Positions 3,652-42,683 of a stretch of DNA of 60,871 nt are shown piece after piece. The translations under genes and the position numbers were made by a program. The notes below the pieces were generated by a model. That model did not search any database. It saw only the letters and a list, made by a program, of their open reading frames with translations, and had not been told where the DNA came from. The stretch lies in assembly GCA_027061785.1 (NCBI GenBank), contig JAMOVA010000020.1:1-60871 (forward strand). Direction: 5' to 3'. The DNA comes from Thermoproteota archaeon (lineage in GTDB: Archaea > Korarchaeota > Korarchaeia > Korarchaeales > Korarchaeaceae). Each line of letters opens with the position of its first letter. The stretch's first letter is position 1.

Positions 3652-4607
3652 TGCTTGGGATCACAAAGGATATAGTCTTGAGAATCGCCAAGTACTATCT
3701 GGTTGCCCTTATCCTCCTGATACCCATCCCCTTGGCTGGAGACTACATTACCCACGTCACCATACTGGTCATGCTATATGCGGTGACAGCCGCCAGCTTG
3801 GATATATTGGTAGGTTACACGGGTAGGCTCTCTCTAGGACATGCGGCATTTTTCGCCGTCGGGGCATACACATCGACCCTCCTCGCGATGAACTGGGGCG
3901 TGAGTCCTTGGGTCGGGATATTTCTTGGTGGTTTGATGGCCTCTGTCTTTGGGCTGATACTCGGAGTACCCTCCCTGAAGCTGAGAGGGCCCTATCTGGC
4001 TATATCTACCCTAGGTTTCGGAATAATAGTCTGGCTGATGCTGATAAACCTGGACTGGCTCACCAGAGGGCCGTTGGGGATACCGGGAATTCCTCCTCTA
4101 CCTGGAATAGGTCCCATCGACTTCAGGAGTAAGGTGGCGTTCTACTATGTGGCACTCGCCTTTACTTTGATATCCATCTTCCTACTGCACCTGCTTACCA
4201 AATCTAGGATAGGAAAGATACTCATGTCGATCAGGGAGGACGAAGATGCTGCCCTGTCTGTAGGCGTAGATGTTCCTCTGTTCAAGGTTTACGCATTTTT
4301 GATAGCTACGTTCTTCGCTGGGATATCGGGAGGACTTTACGCCCACTATCTCAGGTACATCAGTCCCGAGATATCCACCCTAGGGGAGTCCATATACATA
4401 CTCTCCATGACCATAATAGGTGGGTTCGGTACTCTAATAGGGCCCGTCATGGGGGCTGCAGTCCTATCACTGCTTCAGGAGTTGCTCAGATCTTACTTAG
4501 AGTACAGGTACCTCATCTACGGTATGCTGATCATTCTTGTAATGAAGTTCTTCCCATCGGGGATTTACGGAATCGTTCAATTCATCTTGAGGAAGGTGAG
4601 AGAGTGA
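3651..4607 (+). CDS. livM: Branched-chain amino acid ABC transporter permease, LivM type
   Basis: The protein is 318 residues, strongly hydrophobic, with the LivM hallmark LVGYTGRLSLGHAAFFAVGAY near residues 49-69 and the EAA-like loop SIREDEDAALSVGVDV near residue 195. It pairs with LivH to form the pore. The ATG overlaps the livH stop as TGATG, with GGAGG upstream; a GTG three bases earlier is also in frame. The stop overlaps the start of the first ATPase gene by four bases, so translation is probably coupled. Confidence 0.92.
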   Translation: MLGITKDIVLRIAKYYLVALILLIPIPLAGDYITHVTILVMLYAVTAASLDILVGYTGRLSLGHAAFFAVGAYTSTLLAMNWGVSPWVGIFLGGLMASVFGLILGVPSLKLRGPYLAISTLGFGIIVWLMLINLDWLTRGPLGIPGIPPLPGIGPIDFRSKVAFYYVALAFTLISIFLLHLLTKSRIGKILMSIREDEDAALSVGVDVPLFKVYAFLIATFFAGISGGLYAHYLRYISPEISTLGESIYILSMTIIGGFGTLIGPVMGAAVLSLLQELLRSYLEYRYLIYGMLIILVMKFFPSGIYGIVQFILRKVRE

Positions 4608-5344
4608 TCTTAGAGGTGGACAAGGTAGTTAAGAGGTTCGGCGGGCTCGTCGCGGTGGACAACGTCAGCTTCAGCGTGAGTGAGGGGGAGATATTCGGGA
4701 TAATAGGGCCTAACGGTGCTGGTAAAACCACACTCTTCAATGTGATAACAGGATTCTACAAGCCAGATTCGGGCAGTATAAGGTTCTTGGGGGAAGATAT
4801 AACAGGTATGAAGCCCAATAAGTTGGCTAAGCTTGGGCTGACGAGGACGTGGCAGATAGTGAAGCCTTTTCTGGGGATGAGCGTTTTAGACAACTTGCTT
4901 GTGTCAATCTATGCGACTAAAGGTGTGATATATGGAATGAGTGAGGGAGAGGCAGTAAGAAGAGCCGAGGAGATTTTGGAATTCGCTGGACTGCTGCATA
5001 GGAGGGATGTGCTAGCAGAGGCCTTGCCTCATGGTGAGAGGAAGAGGCTCGAAATTGCTAGGGCCTTAGCTACAGAACCCAAGCTCCTCATGCTCGATGA
5101 ACCAGCTGGGGGACTCACACCCACGGAAATGGATGAAGTCATGGAAGTGGTGAGGAAGGTGAGGGAGTCCGGAGTCACTGTGGTGATCATAGAGCATAAC
5201 ATGAGGGTGATAATGAACGTATGCGAGAGGATAATGGTCCTCAACTTCGGCAGGAAGATAGCCGAGGGCAGTCCAGAGGAGATCTCTAGGAATGAGGAGG
5301 TAATAAAGGCCTACTTGGGGGAGAGGTTCCATGTTAGAAGTTAA
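4604..5344 (+). CDS. livG: Branched-chain amino acid ABC transporter ATPase, LivG type
   Basis: The 246-residue ATPase has a Walker A loop GPNGAGKTT near residue 36. The LivG form of the signature, LPHGERKRLEIARAL, lies near residue 142. Walker B (LLMLDEPAGGL) and a switch histidine (IIEHNM) follow. It is one of two cytoplasmic ATPases that drive the LivHM pore. Translation starts at a GTG overlapping the livM stop. The gene overlaps livF by 14 bases. Confidence 0.93.
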   Translation: MILEVDKVVKRFGGLVAVDNVSFSVSEGEIFGIIGPNGAGKTTLFNVITGFYKPDSGSIRFLGEDITGMKPNKLAKLGLTRTWQIVKPFLGMSVLDNLLVSIYATKGVIYGMSEGEAVRRAEEILEFAGLLHRRDVLAEALPHGERKRLEIARALATEPKLLMLDEPAGGLTPTEMDEVMEVVRKVRESGVTVVIIEHNMRVIMNVCERIMVLNFGRKIAEGSPEEISRNEEVIKAYLGERFHVRS

Positions 5345-19067: not shown

Positions 19068-19179
19068 GCCGGGGTAGCTCAGCCTGGTTAGAGCACCGGA
19101 CTCATAAGTTGGGTAGGGCCCACGGTGCTCCCGCTGGGAAATCCGGGGGTCCCGGGTTCAAATCCCGGCCCCGGCACCA
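19068..19179 (+). tRNA. tRNA-Met(CAT), probably elongator, with 34-nt intron
   Basis: The acceptor stem is GCCGGGG/CCCCGGC with encoded CCA (19177-19179). The D-arm, T-arm (CCGGG TTCAAAT CCCGG) and anticodon arm (CCGGA CTCATAA TCCGG once spliced) are all complete. The intron is 19107-19140, at the canonical position 37/38. A bulge-helix-bulge is visible: CTCA (19101-19104) pairs with TGGG (19135-19138), flanked by the bulges TAA (19105-19107) and AAA (19139-19141), with cuts after the second base of each. The CAT anticodon could also belong to tRNA-Ile2 with modified C34; the acceptor sequence favours elongator Met. It lacks initiator features. Confidence 0.9.
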
Positions 19180-21765: not shown

Positions 21766-23151
21766 TCACTCTTGAACCACCAGCCCCATGACATCCATCA
21801 CATTCGTCATAGTGGGTCCCGTGAAGATGGCATCGCCGAGCCATGAGAAGAACGTGTGGGAGTCGTTATTTTTCAGAAAGACTTCCGGTCTCAAGCCCTC
21901 CGAGAGCGCCCTCTCCAGAGTCCGGCCGTCAGCAATCGCTCCCGCCGCGTCAGATACCCCGTCTACCCCATCGGTACCCACGGACCCCAGCACGACCCCT
22001 TCGAGGCCCGATATAGTCCTGACTCCTCCTAAAACCAGTTCCTGATTCCTACCCCCAATTCCCTGTCCCGTCACCTTAACGGTGGTCTCTCCACCCAAGA
22101 TGACGGCTGCAGGCGGAGTGAGGGGCAGCCCTTCCTTTGCTATGGAGACTGCAAGCCCTGCTAGGAACTTACCTATGTGTCTGGCCTCTCCCTCTGCTCT
22201 GGAGCCGAGCACCAGGACGTTGTAGCCCATCTCAACCAGCGCCCTCTCAGCTGCCTGGACAGCCTTCAGGTTGTTGGCCACTATCACATTCACGACCCTA
22301 TTGAATACCTCGTCGCCCGGCTTGGGGGTCTCCGGTATTTCGCCCTTTAACCCACGTTTCAACACCTTTATCACGGATTCTGGCATTTTATCGACGAGTG
22401 AATAGTTTTCGAGAACCTGCCAAGCGTCCTCGAAAGTTGTCTCATCCGGCGCGGTTGGACCGGAGGCTATGACATCCAGAGGATCCCCTATAACGTCAGA
22501 TATTATCAGTGACACGACGGTAGCTGGATAGGCGGCCTTGGCGAGCCTACCACCCTTTATCTGAGATACATGCTTCCTAACGGCGTTTATCTCTCTGATA
22601 TCCGCTCCGGAAAGTACGAGCAACCTGTTCATCTCCCGGAGGTCGTCCAGAGAGATGCCTTCCATGGGATATTCCATTAGAGCCGAACCGCCGCCAGATA
22701 TCAGGGAGAGAACTAGGTCCCTTTCCCCCGCCTTCCTAGCTATATCTAAGATCTCTTTCGCCCCTTTCAGGCTACCCTCATCGGGGATGGGGTGGCCAGC
22801 GGGATTCAACATGATCTTCGAGAGGGAAACGGCCTTCTCGGTCTTAGCAGGGACATTGATCCAACCTGATGATATGCGTTCCCCTATCCTGTCCTCCACA
22901 GCTTTAGCCATCATGCTGCCTGCTTTTCCCGCTCCCACCACGTATACATCCTCAAAAGATCCTATGTCGACAGATGAGGTGCCGAACACTATCTCCTGAT
23001 CAGAGAATCTGGAAAATACCGCTTTATAAGCGTCGGCGGCTGTGATCGCCTTATCAAAGGCCAGCAGCAGGGCCCTTCTAGCGTCCTTGTCCCTCCTAGT
23101 CGCTCCGTTATCAACAAGCTCATCCAGATTTTTTATGTAGGAGGAGCTCAT
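21766..23151 (-). CDS. gck: Glycerate 2-kinase, MOFRL family
   Basis: The 461-residue protein has the DUF4147/MOFRL two-domain layout. Visible are VVGAGKAGSMMAKAVE near residue 70, AGHPIPDEGS near 118, ISGGGSALMEYP near 148, NAVRKHVSQIKGGRLAKAAYP near 190, LGGETTVKV near 353 and VGTDGVDG near 392. The enzyme phosphorylates D-glycerate at the 2-position, linking non-phosphorylated sugar breakdown or serine catabolism to glycolysis. The start overlaps the Clp1 gene stop by four bases, so the two are coexpressed. Confidence 0.9.
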   Translation of the reverse strand: MSSSYIKNLDELVDNGATRRDKDARRALLLAFDKAITAADAYKAVFSRFSDQEIVFGTSSVDIGSFEDVYVVGAGKAGSMMAKAVEDRIGERISSGWINVPAKTEKAVSLSKIMLNPAGHPIPDEGSLKGAKEILDIARKAGERDLVLSLISGGGSALMEYPMEGISLDDLREMNRLLVLSGADIREINAVRKHVSQIKGGRLAKAAYPATVVSLIISDVIGDPLDVIASGPTAPDETTFEDAWQVLENYSLVDKMPESVIKVLKRGLKGEIPETPKPGDEVFNRVVNVIVANNLKAVQAAERALVEMGYNVLVLGSRAEGEARHIGKFLAGLAVSIAKEGLPLTPPAAVILGGETTVKVTGQGIGGRNQELVLGGVRTISGLEGVVLGSVGTDGVDGVSDAAGAIADGRTLERALSEGLRPEVFLKNNDSHTFFSWLGDAIFTGPTMTNVMDVMGLVVQE

Positions 23152-24383
23152 GGAAGGTTCATCCCCCTTGAGCCGAGTTCCTCGCCCTCAGCATTAAACC
23201 TGATGTATCCCAGTGCAATCCCCTCTACCTGCCCCTCATACTTTGTTAAGACGCTCATCCAGCCCTCCCTGATGTCCATCGATTGTATTATGCCGACTCC
23301 CCTGCACTCTCTTCCTTGGACGAGGCCCACGTAGAGTCCCTCGTAAACATTTACTGGGCCTATTCTCACCTCCTTGTTCAGGAGCTCTGATAGCATCGCG
23401 ATTTTCCTCCTGTCGACTTCGCCTTCCGTGAGCGCTATAAGCATGTCAGGGGACTCCTCCATCCACCGGACCCCCACTCCCAAGATGCGCTCTAAGAATG
23501 GGATATACTCGTCCTTCACCCTGCCAGTCATGAGGAATGTGTTCATCAGCTCGATTTCTCGGAGGTCAAGCTTTCTCGTAGCGGCACCAGATAGGTATCT
23601 CCTGAGGAGAGCTCTCCTGACAGCGATCCTGTAGTTCCTGTTTTTGGTCCGATCTCCTACGGGTGACTTGACCTTTAGAACCTTCACATCTTTGGGGATC
23701 ATCTTGGCTATGTGATTTAAGTCCCCTTCTTCCTTCTCTATCAATACCACGATGTCCGGATCCAGGAACTCGACTTTGAACCTCTTTAGAGCCCTAGCTG
23801 CTCCTCCATCCACGAAGCCCGTGGTGTTTATGAGAACAGTGTCGCTCCTAGATCTATTCAAGGCGTCTAGAAGTCCCTTCACCATTGGGAGGAAGTGACC
23901 GCTTGGTGTCTTATCGCCGATGAAATACATGAAGTCCGGTTCCAGTAACTTGGTGTGGATGACGGGCCTTCCCACATCCTTGCTGGAGATCACCCCGGGT
24001 GGTCCCAGATCGGACTGGCCAACGTCTGAATCGATTACGGAGACCGTGCTACCGCTCCTCACTATCCTGTTGATCGTAAAAACTACCGTAGAACTCTTAC
24101 CGGAGTCCACTCTTCCTATGAATATGGTATTTTTGCCCGCTACGATTTCAGGAAGCTCTTCCCACCAGTCCGGGATGGGGTTCTCTAGCTTCACGTAGTG
24201 TCCATCTATAGCTACTTTCGAATCGATGGAAGATGTGACTAGTAGCTCCACACCGTCCATCTGAACCGATATCTCATCGAACTCGGCCCCCCAAACTTCG
24301 ATGTTGCCGCTTAGGAGTTTAATAGAGGCCGGTGACCTCACTAACACCCCTTCACCCTTCGGTAATTCCACCTCTTCCGGCAT
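23148..24383 (-). CDS. Clp1/Grc3-type polynucleotide 5'-hydroxyl kinase
   Basis: The 411-residue protein has a short beta-rich N-terminal domain, then a P-loop IGRVDSGKSST near residue 89. IDSDVGQSDLGPPG near 118 follows, a Clp1/Grc3 hallmark that positions the RNA 5' end, and then INTTGFVDGGAARALK near 185. A C-terminal beta domain completes the Grc3-like layout. The enzyme phosphorylates 5'-hydroxyl ends of RNA, for example after splicing endonuclease cleavage of tRNA introns such as the one at 19107. An RNA 3'-phosphate cyclase lies 4 kb away. It leads a two-gene unit with glycerate kinase. Confidence 0.88.
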   Translation of the reverse strand: MPEEVELPKGEGVLVRSPASIKLLSGNIEVWGAEFDEISVQMDGVELLVTSSIDSKVAIDGHYVKLENPIPDWWEELPEIVAGKNTIFIGRVDSGKSSTVVFTINRIVRSGSTVSVIDSDVGQSDLGPPGVISSKDVGRPVIHTKLLEPDFMYFIGDKTPSGHFLPMVKGLLDALNRSRSDTVLINTTGFVDGGAARALKRFKVEFLDPDIVVLIEKEEGDLNHIAKMIPKDVKVLKVKSPVGDRTKNRNYRIAVRRALLRRYLSGAATRKLDLREIELMNTFLMTGRVKDEYIPFLERILGVGVRWMEESPDMLIALTEGEVDRRKIAMLSELLNKEVRIGPVNVYEGLYVGLVQGRECRGVGIIQSMDIREGWMSVLTKYEGQVEGIALGYIRFNAEGEELGSRGMNLP

Positions 24384-24402: not shown

Positions 24403-24413
24403 ATCATTTAAGG
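24403..24413 (+). promoter_or_regulatory. TATA box of the RuBisCO-like gene
   Basis: ATCATTTAAGG is centred about 27 nt before the GTG at 24436, which predicts a leaderless transcript and supports that start. Confidence 0.55.
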
Positions 24414-24435
24414 GAACCCCGGGTGACGACCGAAT

Positions 24436-25521
24436 GTGGGTGAAAAGGTCTTGATCTTGGAACTCGAGTGTAAAAAGCCCTTGCGAGAGATATCTATACC
24501 GACAGACTTTGAAGAGGAAGTAGAGGCGAGGGTAGAGCTGGAGGAAGTAGGAAAGTACAGATACATAATTGAACTACCCGAGGAACTGTTGGGCGGAGAT
24601 CTCCTCCTCCCATCCATATACTACGCGGTAGAATCGCTACTGGAGCATCTTCCACCAATCTGTGAGGTAAAGAGCGTTGAATTCCCTCTCGACAGGGTGA
24701 GGTCCCCTACCCCCGGTAAATCTGGGCTGAAGAAGTATTTAGGGCTGAGAGGACCAGGTGTGGCGGCCTCAGTGGGGAAGAATGTCGTTTTGCATCCCCT
24801 CTCACACGCGAGATTATTTAGGGAGATGTGTAAAGCCGGTCTCCACGTAGGCTTCGACCCCCTCAGTTTAATGGATAAGGAGGCTTCTCCTTACCTAGAT
24901 AGGGCTCATCAAATAGTCGAAATCATCGATAGGATAAAAGAGGAAGAAGGTAAGCGGGTACTGTACTTCATGAGACTTCCCACATCCTCGGAAGACCTAG
25001 AGCGCGCCATCTCCTTGGGGATGAGGGGGTTTTATGTCCATATGTGCTGGGATCTAGGTAGGCTCGAGCTTGCGATCGAGTTCCTAGATGACATATTCTT
25101 AGCAGCGAGGAGTGTGAACTGCCTCTCTAGAGAGGCAGGACTCGGGATTAAAGCCACTTACGAGCTCCTAAGGGTTAGTGGCTTTGATCTGATTGAGAGA
25201 CCTGTGGCATGGAAGCGGGAGGATCTGGAGATCGTTAGGGAGTTAGACGAGATCATAGGAGGAGGGAAGGGCGCTGCGATGCCGCTAACTGCCCCCCAAG
25301 TCCACCAAGGGATAGCTATCGCTAACGTACCTGAGGACCTGCAGGTGATCCTCAACGGGGATCTAGGAATATACGATCACCCTAGAGGGATCATAGCTGG
25401 AGTGAGATCCATGAGAGAGGTGCTAGATTCGTTCATGAGGGGTGAAAACCCCTTATCAGTAATCAGGAGGGATAAGGATGTGGAGGCGATGGTGGAGAAA
25501 TGGGGATATCTGCTACCGTGA
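24436..25521 (+). CDS. Highly divergent RuBisCO-like protein
   Basis: This 361-residue protein follows the RuBisCO large-chain plan in order but is shorter than the usual 410-450 residues. The N-terminal domain ends in SVEFPLDRVRSPTPGKSGLKKYLGL (residues 80-104), matching the stretch before the TIKPK loop. KAGLHVGFDP (133-142) aligns with the GGLDFTKDDE strand, VLYFMRLPTSSEDLERA (175-191) with the YLNVTAGT strand, GIKATYELLRVSGFDLI (237-253) with the strand carrying the second catalytic histidine. ILNGDLGIYDHPRGIIAGV (305-323) matches the GGG-HP-G phosphate loop. The carbamylated lysine and both Mg-binding acids are absent, as is the HAHRAMH segment. Carboxylase activity is therefore very unlikely; the role is unknown. 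The alignment is by eye. A DUF72 gene follows, probably in the same operon. Confidence 0.7.
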   Translation: MGEKVLILELECKKPLREISIPTDFEEEVEARVELEEVGKYRYIIELPEELLGGDLLLPSIYYAVESLLEHLPPICEVKSVEFPLDRVRSPTPGKSGLKKYLGLRGPGVAASVGKNVVLHPLSHARLFREMCKAGLHVGFDPLSLMDKEASPYLDRAHQIVEIIDRIKEEEGKRVLYFMRLPTSSEDLERAISLGMRGFYVHMCWDLGRLELAIEFLDDIFLAARSVNCLSREAGLGIKATYELLRVSGFDLIERPVAWKREDLEIVRELDEIIGGGKGAAMPLTAPQVHQGIAIANVPEDLQVILNGDLGIYDHPRGIIAGVRSMREVLDSFMRGENPLSVIRRDKDVEAMVEKWGYLLP

Positions 25522-26243
25522 AGGTGGGTTGCTGCGGGTTTCAGGTCTCTAGGAAGAAATACTACCAGAAACTCAGTTTGGTGGAGGTCCAAAAGACATT
25601 TTATAAGCCCCCTAAGGTTGAAACCTTGAGGAAATGGCGTGAAGAAGCCCCTAGAGACTTTGAATTCACCGTAAAGGCCTGGATGGCCTTCACCCACGAT
25701 CCCAAGAGCAGGATATGGAGTAAGACGGGCCTTCCCAAGGAAGATTCTTATGGGTCGCTCAAGCCCACCAAGGAGAACTTCAAACTTTGGGAGGAATTCA
25801 GGGCTCTGGTGAGGGAGCTCGGAGCTAATATCGTAGTTTTTCAAAGCCCACCCTCCTTCGAATTCAACGAAGTCAATCTCACCAACGCGCGAGAGTTCTT
25901 CTCAGCCATCTCAGGGGATTTCCTGCTGGCATGGGAGGTCAGAGAGGCCGGTTGGTTCAGAAGCCCGGAGTTCAAGGATCTGCTGGAGGATCTAGGTATC
26001 TCTCATGTCGTGGACCCCATGTACGAAGCTCCCGTTTACGGTAAGATTCGATATTACAGGTTGCATGGGAGGAGGGAGGGGAAGAGGATCGTTTACTCTC
26101 ACAAGTACGGACAGGAGGAATTAGAGAAGCTTAGGGAGATTGTGGAGAAGTGGTCCTTGAGGGAGAACTACGTGCTGTTCAATAACTCCTATTTCAGCTT
26201 CGAGAACGCCATCCAATTCCAAGAGATGGTTCATTCCACGTAG
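25518..26243 (+). CDS. DUF72-family protein
   Basis: The protein is about 241 residues, starting MKVGCCGFQVSRKKYYQKL, followed by VEVQKTFYKPP and EFTVKAWMAFTHDP, with a C-terminal region YYRLHGRREG and a final NNSYFSFENA. These match DUF72 (YecE-like), a TIM-barrel family of unknown chemistry. I choose the GTG at 25518 because it overlaps the previous stop as GTGA and gives the family N-terminus; an ATG at 25500 is possible. The gene is coupled to the RuBisCO-like gene and overlaps the opposing crenactin gene by 13 bases. Confidence 0.85.
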   Translation: MKVGCCGFQVSRKKYYQKLSLVEVQKTFYKPPKVETLRKWREEAPRDFEFTVKAWMAFTHDPKSRIWSKTGLPKEDSYGSLKPTKENFKLWEEFRALVRELGANIVVFQSPPSFEFNEVNLTNAREFFSAISGDFLLAWEVREAGWFRSPEFKDLLEDLGISHVVDPMYEAPVYGKIRYYRLHGRREGKRIVYSHKYGQEELEKLREIVEKWSLRENYVLFNNSYFSFENAIQFQEMVHST

Positions 26244-27514
26244 AACCAGCCCTCCATTTTTCCCCAGTCCCACTTTATTCCTTCCCCGACTGCCAATCCG
26301 TAGACTATGGCTCCCCTCCACACGCTGAACTGGGGGTCTGAGACCATCTTGGGATCGGTTTCCAGACCCACGGATTTCATCATCACCTTAAGCTTGGTCG
26401 GCGAGTCCGTGGCTATCCCTTCCAATCCCTTGGGGACTTGCCAGTTGAAGGCCCCTCCCGATAGTATAATGTGCCTCACTATGGACGATTGCAGCTCCAC
26501 GGGGGTCTTGGAAATGGATTCCCTTATAGCTTCGGCGAGGCTCACATCTCCCGGGATCACTTCGCCACCCACTAGAGTGTCCTTGGGTGGAGTAAAGCCC
26601 CTAGAGTAGTAACTCTCGAAGATCTCGTGTCCGGGATTGAAGAAGAACTCACCGATGAGGAACCTCTGCCACGCCTTGTCTCCCATGTCCACCTCCACCG
26701 TGGTGCCCGGAATGCGGAAGACCGACTGTAGCGCGCTGGGATGGTCCTTAGCCCAGGATATGGCTTTATCTACGTCTAAAGGAAGGAGACCCACCGATTC
26801 CTTGAATATGCGGACGAATTTCTCCTCCCTAGCTAAGTCGGAGTAACCGAGATCCTTCAGTATCTGGGCCGCGATCCTATCCGAATCACTTCCTCCCCTG
26901 TTGAGGGGTATCAAGGCAGCCTTAATTACATCTCTGCTTATAGGCGTTATCTGGGTGTTTCCATGCCCTGCTTCGACGACGACGCATGTCACCGCCTTCT
27001 CCGCTATGGCAACCGCCAGTGGCTGCGGTATTATGGTGACCGCCCTCACAAGGCCGCCTCCTTCCTCGGCGTTCACCTCCCTGTGGATCTCAAACAGCCT
27101 CTCGTACATGTATGTCGGTGCTTGGGCAGCTAGCGATGCGACTACGAAGAAACCGTGGAAAGGAACCCCGGTAGAGTCCGTTCTTCCGGGGTGATATTTT
27201 AGAAGCCCGTATCTCACGAGCTCCTTTATGACCTTCCAGCCCCTCTCATCCCCTCTCTCCACTATGCCATTTCTCATGGGATAATAGAGCCTAGATAGAT
27301 CTGCTTTGGATTCCAAGTACTCTGCTACCTCGTTACCCACCACTACTTCCCTCGGCTTTATGCCCCTGACCTCGGCCGAGAGTTTCGATATCCTCGGAAA
27401 GTACCCCCTGTTCTCTACCATGTCGGGCCCGGTCTTCATGAGCCACCATGGCCCGAACTTGTAGTATGAGGTACCGAAGTCAGACGCGAAGACGGGTTTG
27501 GTGGTAACTGACAA
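26231..27514 (-). CDS. Crenactin, archaeal actin homologue
   Basis: The 427-residue protein matches crenactin over its length. It has phosphate-1 loop ASDFGTSYYKFGP near residue 10, the segment RNGIVERGDERGW near 81, IIPQPLAVAIAEKAV near 160, phosphate-2 loop VVEAGHGNTQITPIS near 178, LNRGGSDSD near 203, adenosine loop IILSGGAFNWQVP near 349 and SEPQYSVWRGA-like SDPQFSVWRGAIVYG near 400. Crenactin forms helical filaments linked to cell shape. It occurs in Thermoproteales and Korarchaeota, a useful lineage clue. In Pyrobaculum it lies with arcadin genes; none are beside it here. It overlaps ogt by 35 bases. Confidence 0.93.
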   Translation of the reverse strand: MSVTTKPVFASDFGTSYYKFGPWWLMKTGPDMVENRGYFPRISKLSAEVRGIKPREVVVGNEVAEYLESKADLSRLYYPMRNGIVERGDERGWKVIKELVRYGLLKYHPGRTDSTGVPFHGFFVVASLAAQAPTYMYERLFEIHREVNAEEGGGLVRAVTIIPQPLAVAIAEKAVTCVVVEAGHGNTQITPISRDVIKAALIPLNRGGSDSDRIAAQILKDLGYSDLAREEKFVRIFKESVGLLPLDVDKAISWAKDHPSALQSVFRIPGTTVEVDMGDKAWQRFLIGEFFFNPGHEIFESYYSRGFTPPKDTLVGGEVIPGDVSLAEAIRESISKTPVELQSSIVRHIILSGGAFNWQVPKGLEGIATDSPTKLKVMMKSVGLETDPKMVSDPQFSVWRGAIVYGLAVGEGIKWDWGKMEGWFYVE

Positions 27515-39716: not shown

Positions 39717-41295
39717 GACCCTCCCCATACCATTCCTTTTCGCTCACGGTTGATCCATGTTCTGAGGGTGCTTTCCTGCCTTTTAGGAGAGATGCAATCC
39801 CATAAATGACTACCGCGGCGATTAAGGCCTCGGAGACCAGCCCAAGCGCCACCATCGCCATCGCATGTATGGCCGCCTCCTTAGTCCTGCTCTCGCTCAG
39901 TATCTCGAGCGCCTCCTTTGAAAACGGGTTGAACCATGAGGTGGCCTCCGCATACTCCCTTGCTGTTTTCATTAGAGTCAGGGTCGTCTCATCTATCGAT
40001 TCTACATCTATGCCGAATGACTTGAGGAAGTCGGAGATGTCTTGACCGGCTGCCTCGCTGAGGTACCTTACGAATTCTCCGGGCTCCTTGACGATGACTC
40101 TGTCCCTCCTGATAAGCTGGAAGAACCTCTTATAGAGGTCAGGACCCCCGTATTTCTCTGCGAGTCTCCTTATCAGGACCTCACTGGCCGTGTAATACAG
40201 GCCGGGGTTGCCCGGGAGGCCTCCACCCTTCCATCCGAGGATGAAACTGAGGTCTCCACCGGTTTGTATCATCACGGCTCTTTCAGCTTCCTTATCGTAA
40301 GGAACATGGAATCCTAGTGCCTTCTCCACTATCACAGAGCTCAGATATTGAGCCAGACCCTCATGAGCCCACCTCAGGTCCACGCTGAGTCCCGCTGCCT
40401 GCATGTACTGGTGGAGGAGTTCGTGCACGAAAGTGTTCGGCAGCTCGTAATCGGGCATCCTGACCAACATCATGTTCAGGTTTATCTCTCCCTGGGTTAT
40501 CACATCAGACGTGAACCTAGGCCCCGTGTATCCCAGAGTTGTTATTTCCTCCATGGTTCCCGGAACGAACAGCTTGACCTTGACAGGTATCTCCTCTCGA
40601 ACGGATGTGTACTCCTCTATTAAGGGTAGGGTGGCCTCGTAGTACCTAGTTATGTTGTCGACAACATCCTCGTATCTGGGGGGATAGCTTATGGTTAGCT
40701 TGCCGACCTCCCTCTTCTTGAACTCCTGGCCATCTTTCACTTTGAAGGATATGAGGACCCTCATCGTGTTGTTCTTGCTCCCATCCACATCGTACTTCAC
40801 CACATTGTACTCTCCCTCCCTTCGAAGCTCGTATCCCTTCGGTTCGATCCCTTGAGGGACGAAGTCCGTGGGGAGCTTTACCAGTATGGTAGCATCGTCT
40901 TGCCGGGAGAAGGCTATCTGTGTGGAGAAGAACGCTCCGTTGGGTTCTACGATGAGAGCGCCGAACCTATAACTCCATGAGATCTCCACGTTAGTTCCTG
41001 GTGTGTATGAGAACGTGAGGTTAGAGTAGAAGTAGTAGGACGTGTCTCTTATCAGCTTCTTATCCTTGATGGACCCTGAGAGGACTGTGAAGTTGTAGTC
41101 CCTGAACTTCGGCACGAGGACCCAAGTACTTCCCTCTCCCGTCGAGTTGAACCGGGTCACTATGTCTATCCAGCCGCTCTCCTTGACCGTGTATATGTAG
41201 GTGTAGTGTCCGCTTCCTTCCTCCTGCTGGGCCGAGGGGATCATCGCAGGAAACGTCAGAACAATCGTCAATAGGATAAGGGCCTTCCACTTCAT
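39661..41295 (-). CDS. Secreted, membrane-anchored gluzincin-type metallopeptidase
   Basis: The 544-residue protein has an N-terminal signal peptide (ALILLTIVLTFPAMIPSA), about 190 residues of beta-rich sequence, then a peptidase domain with FVHELLHQYM near residue 290. The third ligand would be the glutamate in WAHEGLAQYL, 18-20 residues on. This is the HExxH...E arrangement of M1-like peptidases, although GAMEN and other M1 landmarks are not seen. One C-terminal helix (AMVALGLVSEALIAAVVIYGI) and a polar tail follow. The catalytic domain should face outward. It probably degrades peptides outside the cell for uptake; exact family is uncertain. The tail overlaps porB. Confidence 0.75.
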   Translation of the reverse strand: MKWKALILLTIVLTFPAMIPSAQQEEGSGHYTYIYTVKESGWIDIVTRFNSTGEGSTWVLVPKFRDYNFTVLSGSIKDKKLIRDTSYYFYSNLTFSYTPGTNVEISWSYRFGALIVEPNGAFFSTQIAFSRQDDATILVKLPTDFVPQGIEPKGYELRREGEYNVVKYDVDGSKNNTMRVLISFKVKDGQEFKKREVGKLTISYPPRYEDVVDNITRYYEATLPLIEEYTSVREEIPVKVKLFVPGTMEEITTLGYTGPRFTSDVITQGEINLNMMLVRMPDYELPNTFVHELLHQYMQAAGLSVDLRWAHEGLAQYLSSVIVEKALGFHVPYDKEAERAVMIQTGGDLSFILGWKGGGLPGNPGLYYTASEVLIRRLAEKYGGPDLYKRFFQLIRRDRVIVKEPGEFVRYLSEAAGQDISDFLKSFGIDVESIDETTLTLMKTAREYAEATSWFNPFSKEALEILSESRTKEAAIHAMAMVALGLVSEALIAAVVIYGIASLLKGRKAPSEHGSTVSEKEWYGEGLRTPSPTSQGEAESSTSP

Positions 41296-41348
41296 TTGTG
41301 ATACCGAGCTGGAATCCAGTAACGTCTATTTAATTTATCCGGCTGCTG

Positions 41349-42683
41349 ATGAGGGGGATTTCCTTGGAAGTGCTCATCAAGGGGCTGGAGTACGTGGTCA
41401 CTCAGGACGATGAGAGGAGGGTTCTAAGAGGGGCGAGCATCCTGATAAAGGACGGGGCGATCGAGGATGTGGGTGATGTGAAGGGACCCGTTGATGAGGT
41501 GATCGATGGGAGCGGCATGGTTGCCATTCCTGGGTTGATTAACACGCACTCCCACATACCGATGACCCTTCTCAGGGGGGTCGCTGACGACATGGACCTC
41601 TTCCCGTGGTTGCAGGAGAAGATCTGGCCCATGGAATCTCACCTGAGGCCGGATCACATAAGGGCCGGAACCGCTCTGGGAGTGCTAGAGGCGGTGCGAA
41701 CCGGCACCACAACCATCTTCGATATGTACTTCTTCGAGGACGTTGTAGCTGAGGTCCTCAGCGATCTGGGGATGAGGGGGGTGTTGAGCGAGGCGATAAT
41801 AGACTTTGGAACACCAGAATGTAAGGATGTAGAGGAGTGCATGGTTTTGGCGGATCGGTTCGTTCAGAAGTGGCGGGATCACCCATTGATCGAGCCGGGA
41901 TATGGGCCTCACGCCCCCTACACAGTCTCTCCAGAGAGGATGAGGGAGATTTCGGGGAAGGCGGAGGAGAATGGGTCCACCATCCAAATTCACCTAGCGG
42001 AGACCGAGAGGGAGGTTTCCGACATCAAAGAGAAGTACGGAAAGGGGGCGATAGAGCTGGCCCATGAATCCGGTATATTGGGTGACAGAACCGTCGCTGC
42101 GCACGTAGTTTGGCCTAGCCAGAGGGAGATCGCTCTCCTTAGGGAGACATCCACCTTAGTATCTCACAATCCCGTGAGCAATCTGAAGTTGGCCTCAGGG
42201 ATCTCCCCGGTCCCCGACCTAGTGGAGAAGGGGGTTAGGGTTTCCCTTGGGACCGACGGACCGGCCAGTAACAACACCCTAGACATGTTCGAGACCATGA
42301 AGGTGACCGCCCTCATTCACAAGGTCTCGAGGAAGGATCCCAAGGCAATACCGGCTCAGATGGCGCTGGACATGGCCACTAGAATACCCGGAGATTTCCT
42401 CCGATGGAAGGTCGGGAGGATCTGTGAGGGATACAGGGGAGATATTGTTCTTCTGAACGTTAAAGTACCTTGGTGGGTGCCTCTCCACTCCGTGGTGTCC
42501 CATCTGGTCTACTCCGCTAGGTCTACAGACGTGAGGTACGTCCTGATAGATGGTAAGGTGATCTTGAAGGATGGCAAATTCACCAAGAGGGACGAGGAAG
42601 ATATCTTTGTTGAGGCAGAGAGGGCCTCTCTGGACTTGCTGGAGAAATCGGGCGTGAACTCACTGCTTAAGGGCGTGGATTAG
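41349..42683 (+). CDS. Amidohydrolase, 5-methylthioadenosine/S-adenosylhomocysteine (5'-deoxyadenosine) deaminase type
   Basis: The 444-residue protein has the metal site of the amidohydrolase superfamily: GLINTHSHIPMTLLRG near residue 62, GYGPHAPYTVSPE near 182, IQIHLAETEREV near 210, AAHVVWPSQREI near 247, VSHNPVSNLKLASG near 266 and LGTDGPASNNTLDMF near 297. This pattern is that of MTA/SAH deaminases (MtaD/DadD) rather than chlorohydrolases. It converts the adenine of these nucleosides to hypoxanthine. An in-frame TTG at 41364 is preceded by GAGGGGGAT and would give MEVLIKGLEYVV, so the true start may be there. It overlaps the CYTH gene by 24 bases. Confidence 0.85.
   Translation: MRGISLEVLIKGLEYVVTQDDERRVLRGASILIKDGAIEDVGDVKGPVDEVIDGSGMVAIPGLINTHSHIPMTLLRGVADDMDLFPWLQEKIWPMESHLRPDHIRAGTALGVLEAVRTGTTTIFDMYFFEDVVAEVLSDLGMRGVLSEAIIDFGTPECKDVEECMVLADRFVQKWRDHPLIEPGYGPHAPYTVSPERMREISGKAEENGSTIQIHLAETEREVSDIKEKYGKGAIELAHESGILGDRTVAAHVVWPSQREIALLRETSTLVSHNPVSNLKLASGISPVPDLVEKGVRVSLGTDGPASNNTLDMFETMKVTALIHKVSRKDPKAIPAQMALDMATRIPGDFLRWKVGRICEGYRGDIVLLNVKVPWWVPLHSVVSHLVYSARSTDVRYVLIDGKVILKDGKFTKRDEEDIFVEAERASLDLLEKSGVNSLLKGVD

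Follow-up and report, generated by a model that had tools for sequence, protein, structure and literature searches.

The window analyzed here, a 60,871-nucleotide stretch from a member of the archaeal family Korarchaeaceae, carries a gene for a Korarchaeal RuBisCO-like protein (korRLP) within a conserved gene block (Table 1). The first half of the block comprises genes for a TrmB-type regulator, a MOFRL glycerate kinase, a divergently oriented Clp1-type polynucleotide kinase, korRLP, and a DUF72 protein; after DUF72 follow crenactin, an MGMT-type gene, RtcA, an RPA-type OB protein, and an ERCC4 nuclease. In some korRLP genomes, the block is partly hidden by contig ends or rearrangement. Elsewhere in the window, positions 19068-19176 of the forward strand hold a 109-base tRNA that was detected by Rfam, was missed by ARAGORN, and probably bears an intron.

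Table 1. Features of the korRLP locus in the window; g1 is the genus to which the window belongs
Feature	Position	Strand	Evidence or remark
korRLP (Korarchaeal RuBisCO-like protein)	24436..25521	+	GTG start, 361 aa, open frame
N-terminal RuBisCO domain, residues 1-92, shortened	24436..24711	+	Profile matches
C-terminal barrel region, residues 93-361	24712..25518	+	hhalign barrel vs barrel, probability 100, E 3.6e-43
F140-D141-P142, former K201-D202-D203 (carbamate and Mg site)	24853..24861	+	Mapping to form III
E254-R255 at former H327 site; loop-6 lysine K334 gone	25195..25200	+	Mapping to form III
D309, Asp for Gly402 of phosphate loop, 16/16 family members	25360..25362	+	
D331...R335-G336-E337, family-specific invariant motif, segment after strand 8	25426..25446	+	Orthologue comparison
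ATTTAAG, TATA-like element	24406..24412	+	~27 nt before korRLP start codon; conserved in g1
DUF72 gene	25500..26243	+	PF01904 E 1.5e-41
Clp1/Grc3-type polynucleotide kinase, divergent neighbor	23148..24383	-	PF16575 E 6.1e-34; synteny
MOFRL glycerate 2-kinase family gene, same conserved block	21766..23151	-	
Crenactin-type actin gene, same block	26231..27514	-	NF053560 626.7 bits, just under 630-bit equivalog cut-off

The ATTTAAG element is common to all nine g1 genomes aligned, and its spacing fits a leaderless archaeal transcript. This conservation favors the leaderless promoter that a sequence-only reading had proposed for korRLP, but the support is circumstantial, and GGTGA at 24422-24426 is equally a candidate, as a possible Shine-Dalgarno site. 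In g1 genomes, korRLP and DUF72 share 22 bp of their called frames, an overlap that shrinks to 4 bp (GTGA) should DUF72 start at the in-frame GTG at 25518. Because of this overlap, the two genes are probably co-transcribed and translationally coupled in the window's genus. The coupling proposed from the sequence is thus probable for g1 but not for the other four genera with korRLP (g2-g5), where a gene for ribose-1,5-bisphosphate (R15P) isomerase intervenes; likewise, the orthologues sought beside DUF72 genes in other archaea were found at the same locus, but direct adjacency to DUF72 is confined to g1. DUF72 itself is present in 15 of the 16 g1 genomes, whether korRLP is there or not, and in five g1 genomes lacking korRLP, the Clp1 and DUF72 matches lie only 157-184 bp apart. 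In genome G003, the Clp1-type kinase (L198, G003:C35, ~41272-42343) is matched only at ~30%, broken into three pieces and interrupted by many stops, and may be decayed; it adjoins an intact DUF72 gene, with no korRLP there.

korRLP is a genuine RuBisCO-superfamily protein. In single-sequence searches, the window protein matched the NCBIfam form III family TIGR03326 (E 1.2e-10) and, in PDB, RuBisCO 8dht (E 2.1e-11) and MtnW 2oej (E 1.8e-9). Against Pfam PF00016, it scored 30.0 bits (E 4.2e-7; cut-off 30.1), and members such as this one, 0.1 bit below the cut-off, easily go unannotated. PF00016 was matched by 15 of the 16 family members (best E 1.1e-30), and PF02788, the Pfam RuBisCO N-domain, was matched directly by 2 of 16. 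Profile-profile comparison of the family with form III (hhalign) gave probability 100 and E 7.8e-51 over 362 columns, and the N-domain alone reached 97.1% against form III (E 5.9e-11), compared with 0.2% in a control against the barrel. When a 16-orthologue profile was searched against PDB, form III structures came top (6hun, 147.8 bits; 8dht, 139.8), and the RuBisCO-like protein (RLP) chains scored 135.6 bits (MtnW 2oej), ~102 (1ykw/1tel), and 88 (RLP2 2qyg). The profile searches therefore returned form III matches of high probability for both the N-terminal domain and the C-terminal barrel. As far as sequence homology goes, the large-subunit chain order read by eye is right, and an unrelated TIM barrel without a RuBisCO N-domain, the outcome that would have spoken against that reading, is ruled out by the match of both domains. 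An AlphaFold2 model built from only 3 close sequences had a pLDDT of 37.3 and a pTM of 0.27, too low for a usable structure. The chain had been judged 70-90 residues short, which is approximately right: Korarchaeal form III frames span 430-458 aa from stop to stop. In the N-domain, ~19 form III columns are deleted beside the T65/W66 site.

All 15 orthologues of the window korRLP fall within Korarchaeaceae (genera g1-g5), with the gene present in 9 of 16 g1 genomes and 7 of 8 g2-g5 genomes. When a clade profile was run over 394 archaeal genomes, the 16 members scored 345-545 bits and nothing else exceeded 215, a gap that rules out a widespread archaeal family, and no viral copies were found in the scanned viral contigs. 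The 16 sequences form one clade (support 99) at a single locus. At least three losses are needed on the neighbor-gene tree, and a search of G019 between Clp1 and R15P isomerase found no korRLP remnant. Given the spread of orthologues and the three losses that this tree requires, korRLP is ancestral to its archaeal family; the clade gave up the active site before the family radiated.

When only the two least-shortened korRLP members were included in a tree, they were placed among form III-type sequences (100/99 branch). AU tests spoke against union of korRLP with MtnW-side form IV (p 0.024) and with the OiaX side (p 0.021), both on long branches; together with equivalog scores far below the NCBIfam cut-offs (28.9 against 513.6 bits for MtnW and 35.9 against 700 for OiaX), they reject membership in form IV, MtnW, or OiaX. 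Descent by recent duplication from the form III of the same family was also rejected (AU p 0.0001). For Chlorobium-type and some further form IV clades, the comparison was by PDB profile score rather than by tree. korRLP thus appears to attach among form III-type RuBisCOs rather than form IV, at a point made uncertain by long branches, and the early suggestion of a separate RuBisCO-superfamily branch agrees with a distinct clade that joins neither form IV nor the OiaX group.

Mapping of the window protein onto form III revealed replacement of K201 by F140, D203 by P142, E204 by L143, K175 by G114, H294 by A223, and H327 by E254. In addition, K334 is lost (aligned with W259 in a shortened loop), and the GGG phosphate loop has become D309-L-G. 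The carbamylated lysine, the Mg ligands, and the histidine-bearing stretch are hence gone from korRLP, as had been read from the sequence. K201, D203, H294, H327, K334, and G402 are replaced in 16/16 members, K175 in 15/16, and E204 in 14/16; R295 is lost in 15/16, and S379-G380-G381 are mostly lost. The replacements vary across the family: K175 to G, A, or R (one member keeps K), K177 to N, G, and others, K201 to F, M, L, R, A, or V, D203 to P or I, H292 to F, G, or Y, H294 to A, T, Y, or N, and H327 to E, A, or G; G402 is D throughout. D202 stays acidic (D141 is D or E in 16/16), R255 is present in 15 of the 16 members, and E254 is absent from three (L015, L016, and L018). The count of K, R, and H at mapped active-site positions falls from 9 in form III (L041) to 0-4 in korRLP. 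With this depletion and the loss of the metal site and the two phosphate sites, RuBisCO-style binding of a sugar bisphosphate is unlikely.

The conservation pattern is consistent with release of the old pocket. Measured across five genera, which need not share one function, mean pairwise identity of korRLP in the 19 former active-site columns is 0.295, compared with 0.303 for all columns (permutation fraction 0.53); the same columns average 0.98 in canonical forms. Active-site columns that are conserved only as well as the average column imply that special constraint on the old pocket has been lifted. For the other columns conserved in canonical forms, the korRLP average is 0.47, with many structural G, P, H, W, and R residues still invariant. 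The family has also acquired invariant residues of its own (G106, N297, D309, D331, R335, and E337), and R255, D271, and P142 are nearly invariant. Of the invariant residues, D331, R335, E337, N297, and G106 map to none of the former active-site positions. The D331/R335-G-E337 motif belongs to the helix that follows strand 8; in known RuBisCO structures, this helix ends on the side of the barrel opposite the active site, making the motif a candidate interaction surface. Orthologue frames are open, and dN/dS for near pairs is ~0.05-0.23 by two methods, which speaks against a pseudogene; for the same genome pair, korRLP has a dN/dS of 0.14, compared with 0.10-0.11 for its neighbors DUF72 and Clp1. 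Judged by these substitutions and by its residues, korRLP is under selection and yet would not be a working RuBisCO.

AMP phosphorylase, R15P isomerase, and RuBisCO III have been reported from Korarchaeia genera (PMC10667645). In g2-g5, the one extra gene between korRLP and DUF72 lies on the opposite strand and encodes R15P isomerase; the five tested scored 425-436 bits against TIGR00511, whose cut-off is 314. This gene is next to korRLP in 7 of 8 g2-g5 genomes and is the sole gene over the TIGR00511 cut-off in each genome. The two genes are convergent, and each can occur without the other; korRLP is absent from G019, which has both R15P isomerase and form III. The g2-g5 genomes with korRLP also encode a canonical form III RuBisCO (275-312 bits) at a separate location, as well as AMP phosphorylase, although the G023 match is just a fragment at a contig end and scores below the cut-off. 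G016, G017, G018, G020, and G021 each carry two genes for AMP phosphorylase that pass the curated cut-off. In g1, AMP phosphorylase over the cut-off was found in 0 of 16 genomes, and the strongest IF-2B proteins checked in two genomes (G000 and G009) are MtnA-type. A PF00016 search for canonical form III in g1 found none, the matches being limited to an odd, divergent homologue in G002 and, in G001, a broken fragment of the same kind. The G002 gene (L043, G002:C9, ~4596-5312, minus strand, 413-aa frame) is a second, separate divergent RuBisCO homologue that retains K175, K201, D203, E204, H294, and H327, with K334 lost and the phosphate loop altered; the G001:C11 fragment (L156, 3672-3902) is 70% identical to it and has an internal stop. 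The window's genus has therefore lost the AMP-RuBisCO pathway yet kept korRLP in 9/16 genomes, and the lasting R15P isomerase neighborhood hints that korRLP originated in that pathway.

On balance, we lean toward the view that korRLP is a RuBisCO-fold pseudoenzyme kept by selection, which most likely binds, regulates, or acts as a scaffold without catalyzing a reaction. Its old site could hardly carry out RuBisCO or enolase chemistry, nor would it be expected to bind a sugar bisphosphate in the RuBisCO manner, and selection would have preserved it for binding, regulation, or scaffolding. In the window's genus, the protein has outlived the AMP-RuBisCO pathway, its gene now overlapping DUF72. 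Retention after pathway loss and three independent losses fit an accessory protein. The analysis demonstrates homology, residue loss, one clade at one locus, purifying selection, and loss of the pathway in the genus; we infer the absence of catalysis and the oligomeric state, as we do the binding or scaffold role and co-transcription. Several points weigh against a pseudoenzyme: DUF72 does not need korRLP and so points to no partner, release of the active site was measured over five genera that may differ in function, and D141, D309, R255, and mostly E254, whose RuBisCO positions are at the barrel mouth, could form a new catalytic site. An enzyme of new chemistry, its old site rebuilt around D141, E254-R255, and D309 to work either without a metal or with other ligands, and on a non-bisphosphate substrate, would be in keeping with purifying selection, with the near-universal presence of these residues (D309 16/16, D/E141 16/16, R255 15/16) at RuBisCO positions occupied by Gly, Asp, and either Thr or a hydrophobic residue, respectively, and with the precedents of MtnW and OiaX for changed chemistry in this fold. 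We nevertheless regard it as unlikely: taken together, the pocket columns show no more than average conservation, E254 is missing from three members, korRLP has no conserved catalytic Lys or His or metal cluster, and the RLPs compared retain K201, D203, and H294. Of the two possibilities originally offered, new chemistry or a binding role, the evidence leans to binding.

Less probable again is that korRLP is, or in g2-g5 was, a regulatory partner of the AMP pathway, such as a modulating subunit of R15P isomerase or form III, and survives in g1 as a relic. Adjacency to the sole R15P isomerase, in genomes that hold form III RuBisCO and AMP phosphorylase, is what such a partner would predict, but the genes are convergent and form no operon, G019 does without korRLP, g1 keeps it under selection after losing the pathway, and its bisphosphate-binding residues are gone. 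That korRLP is a functionless, decaying relic we find scarcely credible; repeated loss of the gene and the absence of catalytic residues would suit decay, which is largely refuted by open frames, new residues invariant in 16/16, and dN/dS values like those of its neighbors. Returning to the pseudoenzyme in its evolutionary setting, we hold roughly evenly balanced the broader proposition that korRLP is a separate RuBisCO lineage outside forms I-IV, its fold recruited to a non-catalytic role or to chemistry at D141/E254-R255/D309 and kept after pathway loss. RLPs are the main evidence on how RuBisCO chemistry arose and diversified, and korRLP, with its residue loss, its R15P isomerase neighbor in sister genera, and its persistence beyond the pathway, would be a clear case of a metabolic enzyme turned into something else. 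Because genera differ in whether they have the AMP pathway, form III, and korRLP, the question can be put to a direct test.

Our search of open-licence papers found no literature on Korarchaeota RuBisCO-like proteins. What appears new is a Korarchaeal RLP clade that has lost the metal and lysine center, much of which the compared RLPs keep. Form IV has been defined as a RuBisCO homologue without active-site residues, from which carboxylation is not expected (PMC5575542); by its residues, korRLP falls under this loose definition, but as far as tested it does not group with form IV in phylogeny. With form III RuBisCO, korRLP shares full-length profile homology, its best PDB matches being 6hun and 8dht, but it is ~65-85 residues shorter and lacks the carbamylation lysine, Mg ligands, catalytic Lys and His, and phosphate-binding Gly; g1 also lacks AMP phosphorylase, and the Korarchaeaceae's own form III is not sister to korRLP. 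Form IV RLPs (MtnW, OiaX, and others) share with korRLP descent as RuBisCO homologues without a complete RuBisCO active site. Those compared (MtnW, OiaX, and rhizobial) retain K175, K201, D203, and H294, whereas korRLP retains K201, D203, and H294 in 0/16 members and K175 in 1/16, in line with the initial remark that known RLPs keep more of these residues. Archaeal RLP-type proteins (L029, L030, and L032) are, like korRLP, altered at R295, H298, and H327, but they keep K175, K201, D203, E204, H294, and K334 intact and group with MtnW.
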